Source: Halothiobacillus sp. (GTDB lineage Bacteria > Pseudomonadota > Gammaproteobacteria > Halothiobacillales > Halothiobacillaceae). From it: a stretch of DNA of 55,178 nucleotides. Shown one piece after another: positions 48,325 through 52,062 of the stretch. Numbering within the stretch: position 1 is the first letter of the stretch; the number at the start of each line of letters is the position of its first letter. The DNA lies in NCBI GenBank assembly GCA_011389965.1, contig JAABTF010000002.1, positions 1 to 55,178 on the forward strand, read 5' to 3'. The position numbers were made by a program, and so were the translations under genes. The notes beneath the pieces were generated by a model. That model searched no databases. It was not told the DNA's origin and worked only from the letters and a program-made list of their open reading frames with translations.

Positions 48325-48388
48325 TTCCCCCACGCTCTCTCGGGGCGGACGAACCAGCGCGCTCAACCGGGCAAGGAGCGGCCTTCGA

Positions 48389-48417
48389 TGGACGAAATGG
48401 CCGCCAGACGGTATAAT
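48389..48417 (+). promoter_or_regulatory. Putative rpoD promoter
   Basis: TGGACG (48389-48394) and a perfect TATAAT (48412-48417) are separated by 17 bp. Transcription would begin near 48424, about 207 nt before the rpoD start codon. Confidence 0.6.
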
Positions 48418-48423
48418 TCCGTG

Positions 48424-48630
48424 TTCCCCAACGGGAAAGCCTGCGAAGCAGACCGGTCCAGTGACCGTCTCCCGGGCCTTCCCCACGCGAGGCCCGGACG
48501 TCTCCTCGCGCAGCCAGACACAAGCGATGTCGGCCATCCGGCTCCCCGGAGTGGCCATTCCAAGCGCCCGCACAATCGCGGCGCGAGGATCCGACGTTTT
48601 CACCGAATTGCCAAAGCAGGTTTCACGCCG
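48424..48630 (+). other. Structured 5' leader of rpoD with mutually exclusive hairpins
   Basis: The leader can form an outer stem CGGGA/TCCCG (48432-48436 with 48470-48474) enclosing two hairpins, CTGC-GAA-GCAG (48441-48451) and CGGTC-CAGT-GACCG (48454-48467), like a three-way junction. Its 3' arm overlaps a second perfect stem, CCGGGCCT/AGGCCCGG (48472-48479 with 48490-48497). That stem overlaps a third, CGCGAGG/CCTCGCG (48486-48492 with 48504-48510). A second CGCGAGG is at 48582-48588. A fourth hairpin, GGCCATCCGG with CCGGA-G-TGGCC, is at 48532-48556. No known RNA family is recognised. Confidence 0.5.
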
Positions 48631-50445
<1,815 letters not shown>

Positions 50446-50454
50446 TCATGTCCA

Positions 50455-50493
50455 GGCCGGCTCTCCGCCGGCCTTCAATGGCCAACCGGCCAT
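50455..50493 (+). terminator. Double hairpin after rpoD
   Basis: GGCCGGC-TCTCC-GCCGGCC (50455-50473) and ATGGCC-AACC-GGCCAT (50478-50493) follow the rpoD stop. Neither is followed by a U-run. They may be processing or partial termination signals between rpoD and the tRNA gene. Confidence 0.4.
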
Positions 50494-50499
50494 CAATCC

Positions 50500-50576
50500 G
50501 GGCCCATAGCTCAGCTGGTTAGAGCAGTCGACTCATAATCGATTGGTCGCAGGTTCAAGTCCTGCTGGGCCCACCA
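50500..50576 (+). tRNA. tRNA-Ile2 (anticodon CAU, read AUA after lysidine modification)
   Basis: The 77-nt cloverleaf has a 7-bp acceptor stem GGGCCCA/TGGGCCC, the TAGCTCAGCTGGTTAGAGC D-arm, anticodon stem GTCGA/TCGAT with loop CTCATAA (anticodon CAT at 50534-50536), the GGTTCAAGTCC T-arm and an encoded CCA. The CTCATAATCG-TTGGTCG region resembles bacterial tRNA-Ile2 rather than elongator or initiator tRNA-Met, so C34 should be modified to lysidine by TilS. It lies 54 bp after rpoD. Confidence 0.88.
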
Positions 50577-50804
50577 CTTCCTCCGGTCGTGCTGAACCTC
50601 AGCGGACTATTCCGGCCCGAAATCCCAGATTTCGGTCGCTCCAGCGGCGCGAAGCGATGCTTCGCCCAAATGCCGCTTACGCCCTGCTGGGCCCACCACT
50701 TCCTCCGGTCGTGCTGAACCTCAGCGGACTATTCCGGCCCGAAATCCCAGATTTCGGTCGCTCCAGCGGCGGGGAGCAATGCTTGACCTCGATGCCGCTT
50801 TCGG
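50561..50804 (+). repeat. 122-bp tandem repeat that includes the tRNA-Ile2 3' end
   Basis: The 89 bases from 50561 to 50649 recur exactly at 50683-50771, then identity decays but the outer arms AGCGGC and GCCGCT are kept. Each copy starts with the last 16 nt of the tRNA (CCTGCTGGGCCCACCA). Inside are hairpins GCTGA-ACC-TCAGC, CCGAAATC-CCA-GATTTCGG and, in copy 1, GCGAAGC-GAT-GCTTCGC nested in AGCGGC/GCCGCT. No open frame of note is in the repeat. Confidence 0.92.
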
Positions 50805-50807
50805 CCG

Positions 50808-50816
50808 TGTTACACT
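50808..50816 (+). promoter_or_regulatory. Putative extended -10 promoter for glycerate kinase
   Basis: TGTTACACT (TACACT at 50811-50816 preceded by TGT) resembles an extended -10 element about 100 bp upstream of the glycerate kinase ATG. A TTGACC at 50783-50788 is 22 bp away, too far for a normal -35. It lies right after the second repeat copy. Confidence 0.35.
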
Positions 50817-50916
50817 CCGTATTTCACGCTATCCTCCCAATGCCTCGACACAGAAAAGGTCTGTTGACCCACCAAGAATCAGTCTTGACCTTTGTTGCCG
50901 ATCACACGGGAGTCTT

Positions 50917-52062
50917 ATGTCACGCCACCGCGACATTCTGCTCTGCCCGGACAGCTTTAAGGGCAGCCTGACGGCTGAAGACGTTGCCACCGCCATGGCG
51001 CGCGGCGTTCACGTCGCCGATCCGCAGACGCAGATCCGCGCCCTGCCTATGGCCGATGGTGGCGAGGGCAGCGCCGAACTGGTCACGCAAACGCTGGGCT
51101 GGGAATGGCATCTCTCCGACGTCCACGGCCCTACCGGGACACATCTGACCGCCGGATGGGGCTACGACCCGGAACGGCGGCGCGCCGTGATCGACGTGGC
51201 CTCGGCCTGCGGGCTGGACCTGGTGCGTTCCGGGCACCGCAACCCCTGGCAACTCGACAGCCGTGGCGTGGGCGAGTTGATCCGCTCGGCACTCGACGCC
51301 GGGGCCATGCACCTGCTGATCGGTCTGGGCGGCAGCGCCACCGTGGATGGCGGCGCCGGGATGCTCCAGGCGCTCGGGGTGCGCTTTCTCGACCACGCAG
51401 ACGCCCCCCTGCCCACCCGACCCGGGGGCCTGGTGGGATTGGAGCGGGTGGATTTTTCCGGGCTCGATCCCAGGCTCCGGGATGTCGAGATCACCGTCCT
51501 CAATGACGTGGACAATCCCCTGACGGGCGAGCACGGCGCGGCTCGGGTGTTCGGCCCGCAGAAGGGTCTGGCGGCTGAAGACATCGAAACCATGGATGCC
51601 CACCTCGGCCGGCTGGCCGAACTGATCGATGCATCGGGGCACTTGCAGCGAGCACCGGATACCCCGGGCGCCGGCGCGGCCGGCGGTCTGGGGTTCGCCC
51701 TGGCCTGCGTGCTGGAGGGGGAAGCGCGGATGGGGGCGGCCTATCTCGCCGACCTGATCGGGCTGGATGCGGCGATCGCCGCCGCCGATCTCGTGATTAC
51801 CGGCGAAGGCCAGATCGACAGCCAGACCTCGCGCGGCAAGGTGGTCGCCGAGGTGGTCGCCCGGGCCCGCCGGCAGGGTGTGCCGGTGCTTGCCGTGGCC
51901 GGATCGATCAGCGCCTCCGTCGAGGAACTCGCCGAGTTCGGCCTCGCCGACGCCCGCGCCCTGGTCGAGGGCGACGTGACCGTGGAACAGGCCATGGCCG
52001 AACCGTCCAGCTGGATTGCCGTGCGTACGCAGGCCTTGCTGGAAGATTACCTCGGCAGCTAA
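50917..52062 (+). CDS. Glycerate kinase (GarK family)
   Basis: The enzyme phosphorylates glycerate, probably for photorespiratory or glyoxylate-derived carbon. The 381-aa protein has LLCPDSFKGSLTAEDVATAM near the N-terminus, MADGGEGSAELV, IGLGGSATVDGGAGMLQALG (about residues 137-156), LNDVDNPLTGEHGAARVFGPQKG and the C-terminal ITGEGQIDSQTSRGKV. GGGAG lies 4 nt before the ATG at 50917, which decides this start over the frame from 50779. It stands alone and is convergent with the oxidoreductase. Confidence 0.93.
   Translation: MSRHRDILLCPDSFKGSLTAEDVATAMARGVHVADPQTQIRALPMADGGEGSAELVTQTLGWEWHLSDVHGPTGTHLTAGWGYDPERRRAVIDVASACGLDLVRSGHRNPWQLDSRGVGELIRSALDAGAMHLLIGLGGSATVDGGAGMLQALGVRFLDHADAPLPTRPGGLVGLERVDFSGLDPRLRDVEITVLNDVDNPLTGEHGAARVFGPQKGLAAEDIETMDAHLGRLAELIDASGHLQRAPDTPGAGAAGGLGFALACVLEGEARMGAAYLADLIGLDAAIAAADLVITGEGQIDSQTSRGKVVAEVVARARRQGVPVLAVAGSISASVEELAEFGLADARALVEGDVTVEQAMAEPSSWIAVRTQALLEDYLGS

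Follow-up and report, generated by a model that had tools for sequence, protein, structure and literature searches.

A tandem hairpin repeat at a tRNA gene of Halothiobacillus sp., probably an array of a small non-autonomous insertion element

The repeat found at the 3' end of a tRNA gene in Halothiobacillus sp. belongs to a widespread family of hairpin elements whose third hairpin covaries. We consider it probable that a small (about 85–106 nt), non-autonomous insertion element with three hairpins stands here as a tandem array of two units, and that a target duplication restored the tRNA. Our confidence in an insertion element was slightly reduced by the weaker covariation measures and by a phylum sample poor in tRNA genes, both of which are given below.

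The repeat and its neighbourhood

The window (the whole stretch of 55,178 nucleotides that was analysed) showed the following features around the repeat.

48388..50445, + strand: rpoD (sigma-70), upstream of the tRNA (six sigma-70 Pfam domains; ORF list); the true start may lie inside this reading frame
50500..50576, + strand: tRNA gene, anticodon CAT (ARAGORN 'Met, CAT'; Rfam tRNA, 74.6 bits)
50561..50682, + strand: unit 1, the 16-nt tRNA 3' end with element copy 1 (repeat search, copy alignment)
50561..50576, + strand: target copy A, within the intact tRNA (junction before CC, at the border of T loop and T stem)
50585..50608, + strand: hairpin 1 of copy 1 (fold)
50613..50638, + strand: hairpin 2 of copy 1 (fold; comparison with G013)
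50643..50677, + strand: hairpin 3 of copy 1, outer arms AGCGGC/GCCGCT (RNA and DNA fold; family covariation)
50683..50804, + strand: unit 2, the duplicated tRNA end with element copy 2, inner hairpin 3 decayed (repeat search, fold, alignment)
50683..50698, + strand: target copy B, the duplicated tRNA 3' end (repeat search, alignment)
50765..50799, + strand: hairpin 3 of copy 2, outer arms retained, interior diverged (fold, alignment)
50917..52062, + strand: glycerate kinase gene, downstream of the array (PF02595, E 1.6e-128; ORF list); the start codon is likely at 50917

The tRNA is likely tRNA-Ile2 rather than tRNA-Met, judging from its CAT anticodon and the rpoD neighbourhood. Unit 1 started exactly 16 nt from the tRNA 3' end, and units 50561–50682 and 50683–50804 stood in tandem with a period of 122 and identity at 112 of 122 positions. 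The first 89 nt of both units (16 nt of tRNA and 73 nt of flank) were exact, a repeat far beyond chance; to the left of 50561 there was no match, and all ten mismatches fell within the last third, 50650–50682. The sequence-only reading had described this exact repeat after 122 bp, followed by a diverged part keeping the outer arms AGCGGC/GCCGCT, and the alignment bore out both statements: the arms were retained and the inner hairpin of copy 2 was changed. Its suggestion that the second copy is what remains of a tandem tRNA gene did not hold. The repeat took in no more than 16 nt of tRNA, starting at a point seen again at other tRNAs; the identity of the units began only at nt 62 of 77, and neither ARAGORN nor Rfam detected a second tRNA on the + strand.

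Unit 1 folded into three hairpins and was better than its shuffles both as RNA (50577–50698, z −3.4) and as DNA (50577–50682, z −4.0). Copy 2, having lost the interior of hairpin 3, folded no better than shuffles (z −0.76). Terminator prediction gave no site on the + strand and one weak site on the − strand. An inverted-pair search of 50300–51100, limited to arms of at least 12 nt so that short ends would be missed, gave none. At the gathering cut-off and at E<=10, the Rfam matches of the window unit were the tRNA, two families antisense to the tRNA (below cut-offs) and one sRNA at chance level. The sequence 3' of 50804, after element copy 2, held no third copy of the tRNA end; at this locus, therefore, the original target duplication is indistinguishable from a tandem duplication. 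The distal end of copy 2 (50779–50806) had a 22-nt exact match in the same genome (G000, C115:3864-3885) and a 28-nt match at 93% in G006, and this segment is possibly another dispersed motif.

The same unit in relatives and a wider element family

A search of 40 genomes (own and relatives) found the unit downstream of the same tRNA in G004 and G013, one divergent copy in G006, and unit remnants 15–16.5 kb from the tRNA in G001 and G023. The distribution was patchy, as the covariance model R1, built from nine units, matched 6 of the 27 family genomes at E<=1e-5. A scan of genome contigs with an exact pattern returned two records, a lower bound: Marinobacter sp. SS21 and a Halothiobacillaceae MAG (the same as G004). 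In G000, G004, G013 (first two units) and Marinobacter SS21 the tRNA-end copy was spelled as the host's own tRNA, which means that the copy arose locally or is kept alike there. Hairpin 2 of G013 had a different sequence and was still a hairpin. That the repeat is a structured element rather than a random duplication, as had been proposed from the letters of the window, was confirmed by the recurrence of the unit at the same tRNA and by the fold of unit 1. The opposite outcome, a unit present nowhere else and relatives without insertions at this tRNA, was not observed: other Halothiobacillaceae and Marinobacter had the unit behind the same tRNA, and two relatives carried integrase-bearing islands at the tRNA.

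R1 was then run over 369 genomes of the class. It includes six nucleotides, CCACCA, which give a small bias towards tRNA 3' ends. Beyond its training set, R1 matched G001, G233, G119, G330, G102, G265, G254 and G246 at E<=1e-4, several times at other tRNAs and sometimes with no tRNA nearby. At E<=0.1 per genome, about 37 of the 369 genomes would be expected by chance and 21 were seen; the weak matches L068 and L071 had no flanking repeat and look like noise. Region counts below use E<=1e-4 only.

The second covariance model, R2, was built from 24 diverse cores drawn from the R1 hits, the window included, and it contains no tRNA sequence except the final CC. It replaced a first alignment of 28 cores, in which L067b was misaligned and from which G013, L059b and L061 were dropped as gap-rich. 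RNAalifold returned hairpin 3 only, and its outer stem was added by hand; hairpin 2 was not alignable in one register and is unpaired in R2. At E<=0.01, R2 matched 54 of 369 class genomes and 46 of 271 genera (own included), with up to 13 matches per genome in other genomes. In a 398-genome phylum sample, which takes in the own class, ten genomes matched at E<=1e-4, own included, and nine of these belonged to the same class. The own genome, G000 (85% complete), gave no second copy of the unit, its best further R2 match having an E of 0.5.

In hairpin 3 with its outer stem, 89% of cells were paired (72.9% in shuffles), and 53 double-change cells were counted against 18.8 in shuffles, a value reached by 0 of 500 shuffles. 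Two of the five covariation measures were weak: double-change pairs numbered 9 against 6.5 (13/500), and further pair types 19 against 15.9 (21/500). The outer stem itself was paired in only 73% of cells.

Position, junctions and flanking duplications

All R2 hits of the class at E<=1e-4, except those of G000 and G233, gave 84 regions. A tRNA gene was present in 38 of these regions, which came from 29 of the 35 genomes; 46 regions had none. With the 40–60 tRNA genes that a genome usually has, one would be expected in a few regions per hundred. Element copies lying no more than 400 bp from a tRNA numbered 62 (tandem copies included, thus not all independent), and 61 pointed away from the tRNA, 39 at its 5' side in antisense and 22 at its 3' side. 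The one exception, L169, lay between two tRNAs and had its direct repeat in the tRNA on the element's 5' side. Arrays pointing outward were found on both sides of a tRNA in G265 (L059/L187, four and two copies) and in G043 (L133, seven and two copies). Only 2 of the 11 regions fetched from the phylum sample (L232–L242) had a tRNA, so the tRNA preference is not universal.

A direct repeat of score >=15 flanked the element in 43 of 83 regions, compared with 1 of 316 control positions taken from these regions. It was present in 34 of 38 regions with a tRNA and in 9 of 45 without one; the other 36 non-tRNA regions had no flanking repeat of this score. Among the 40 tRNA junctions, 27 were antisense at the 5' end, where the repeat began at nt 19 from the tRNA 5' end in 21 cases. 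Among the 13 sense cases it began 16 nt from the tRNA 3' end in 10, and the window junction (50561) fits this recurrent position. The exceptions were tRNA-Ser, tRNA-Ala, tRNA-Pro, one tRNA-Met and one tRNA-Arg. The repeat opened with CC in 36 of 40 tRNA cases, the preceding tRNA letters being mostly AAT, TAT, CTA or TAA, and the element end before it read CAC (21) or CGC (12) in 33 of 40. Exact repeats ranged from 17 nt to 57 bp, and longer ones contained mismatches; the short repeats were probably cut by decay outside the tRNA.

Insertions were also found in protein genes. In G109, the start of atpC was present twice: an element interrupted the first copy after 12 codons, and a 57-bp duplication supplied a second ribosome site, start codon and gene beginning, followed by an intact atpC whose product has ATP-synthase epsilon domains. 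The same atpC insertion was present in G232, a congener of G109, where the duplicate had decayed and another contig showed a similar junction; in G334, of another genus, there was no duplication at the atpC site. In L203 (G333:C1:599344-601444) the element lay in a duplicated gene start of at least 75 bp, an intact gene followed, and the whole unit was repeated; we take this gene from its translation to be rng (RNase G). An insertion into a gene end would be tolerated when the duplication is long enough to rebuild the gene, and this may explain the outward orientation at tRNAs.

Arrays appear to have formed in two ways, judging from their copies. Units in L059 and L133 were near-identical, which suggests growth by tandem duplication. 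Adjacent units in L067 and L064 had different hairpins and so seem to stem from independent insertions into one duplicated target. The two copies of the window, with 89 exact nt in common, seem to have arisen by tandem duplication, after which the distal one decayed.

From these observations we propose that an ancestral element inserted within the T arm of the tRNA gene, just before C61 and 16 nt from the gene's 3' end. The target duplication would run outward through the tRNA end and some flank, leaving a complete tRNA upstream, so that the insertion would be harmless, and a copy of the tRNA end beyond the element. The unit would then have been duplicated at this locus. The element presumably moves or moved, through an enzyme that would connect the ...TCAC at its 3' end with CC, which is GG on the opposite strand; tandem copies may arise by unequal recombination or re-insertion. 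A tie between the tRNA-end copy and an insertion event, also raised by the sequence-only reading, is most likely.

A precise 3' junction with a shared CC and a variable duplication would fit target-primed copying; it is also what a transposase whose target duplications vary, or template switching during replication, would produce. Two candidate machineries were compared in 28 genomes, and neither was associated with the elements. Of the 14 genomes with several elements, 4 had a reverse transcriptase (RVT_1) and 10 a Y1 transposase (Y1_Tnp); of the 14 without an R2 match, 5 and 8 had them, respectively.

Known systems, alternative explanations and meaning

MITEs and other non-autonomous transposons have no genes, form hairpins and are flanked by direct repeats. 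The hairpin family shares these three features, and target duplication was evident in the family as a whole, while at this locus it is inseparable from the tandem repeat. It differs in the variable length of its duplications. The window region had no inverted arms of 12 nt or more, shorter ends lying outside the search, and G000 had one locus instead of the many copies per genome of MITEs. REP/BIME elements and REPINs are short palindromic interspersed elements without genes, to which the hairpin family is similar in all these respects; it differs in lying often at tRNA ends and in its long flanking duplications. REP/RAYT systems have a conserved 5' tetranucleotide, GTAG/GGAG, and the Y1_Tnp counts given above showed no association with the elements. 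In one genome, G106 (L150–L153, L155, L157), dispersed and very similar inverted element pairs with ends like ACAGGATTnnCAGGGCGA and no tRNA were seen, which are REPIN-like.

SINE-like retroelements are eukaryotic and use target-primed reverse transcription; we know of none in bacteria. The hairpin family resembles them in its one precise 3' junction with 2-nt homology, its variable target duplication and its variable 5' part, and differs in having no association with reverse transcriptase, although a past or unlinked enzyme is possible. It is a long shot that these elements are SINE-like retroposons of bacteria. In that case a structured RNA with ...CACC at its end would be copied at a nick after GG, primed by the nicked strand, with GG^AT in the tRNA T and D loops as the nick site. 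Such copying would account for the single exact 3' junction, for target duplications of variable length and for a tRNA bias, and the tRNAs would survive by the duplication. If true, the tyrT/RtT repeats of E. coli would form another family of this class.

The closest known arrangement is RtT (RF00391). In E. coli tyrT/tyrV, structured units follow the tRNA, each ending in its last 16–19 nt, with the same T-arm boundary AAT|CC as in the hairpin family; our search found four RtT matches there, with the final 19 nt of the tRNA at the end of each. Like RtT, the window repeat lies after a tRNA and carries a copy of its 3' end. RtT differs in sequence and fold, ending in ...GUAAU where the hairpin family ends in ...CUCAC, and the hairpin family also occurs at tRNA 5' ends and in protein genes. 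No RtT match was found in the window (50490–50900) at E<=10 or in G000 at E<=0.01, and 7 of 25 genomes tested had RtT at E<=0.01. When three units were aligned directly with E. coli tyrT, the scores were low (19, 21.5 and 15) and the alignments full of gaps, and homology to RtT is therefore not claimed; the ten matches listed for the Marinobacter unit with its tRNA against E. coli were to tRNA-Ile only. In G232 (L072:1501-1912), a tRNA-Ser carried the hairpin element on its 5' side and RtT on its 3' side (46.3 bits, gathering score 45). One report places rtT-like elements upstream of several enterobacterial genes and assigns them to BIMEs (PMC2965389). In Actinobacillus, RtT RNAs near tRNA genes are visible on northern blots, according to another (PMC4986893). 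Our literature search, with most subscription journals outside its reach, found no description of the hairpin element.

An RNA function has been proposed for the tandem repeats of the E. coli tyrT operon, and the window repeats could likewise yield, as part of the tRNA transcript, a processed RNA or an attenuator whose function preserves them. The common layout with tyrT/tyrV, the structured RNA of unit 1 and the tRNA-Ser of G232 with both kinds of element speak for such a tail. We nevertheless regard it as unlikely, since most tRNA junctions were antisense at the 5' end and not in the sense of the tRNA transcript, more than half of the regions held no tRNA, and the window gave no RtT match. 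A simple local duplication of the tRNA 3' end and flank by replication slippage, with no further meaning, would agree with the 89 exact nt of the window copies, with the sole locus found in the genome, and with the near-identical multi-copy arrays L059 and L133, which must partly be tandem expansions. This reading accounts for the second copy, but not for related hairpin elements with the same junction at other tRNAs and at atpC, and we judge it improbable.

The relic of a phage or genomic-island attachment site in the tRNA 3' end, which the sequence-only reading had considered, is very improbable and was not borne out. The tRNA-end copies were only 106 nt apart with no integrase or island genes between them, elements also lay antisense at tRNA 5' ends and in protein genes, and BLAST of the window unit against phage and plasmid records gave no match at E<=0.01. 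In its favour, the hairpin flank is displaced from the tRNA in G001 and G023 by stretches of about 15 and 16.5 kb that contain tyrosine integrase genes. These islands at the same tRNA (L039, G001:C18:7500-24500; L040, G023:C35:2500-20900; tyrosine integrases PF00589) are probably prophages and have a duplicated tRNA 3' part at their far end. This duplicated part is longer than the one in the hairpin unit. The tRNA is thus an island site in relatives, which is a separate matter from the hairpin unit.

tRNA genes are classic docking sites of phages and islands, which carry integrases. The insertion-element reading adds gene-less hairpin elements that use tRNA genes at two recurrent points, the T arm and, in antisense, the D arm, and that seem to survive by rebuilding the end of the tRNA gene. 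With it, repeats of tRNA ends, among them E. coli tyrT/RtT, for whose origin we know of no explanation, could be explained in one way. The junctions of the elements also point to a putative joining enzyme, which could be searched for by strain comparison.
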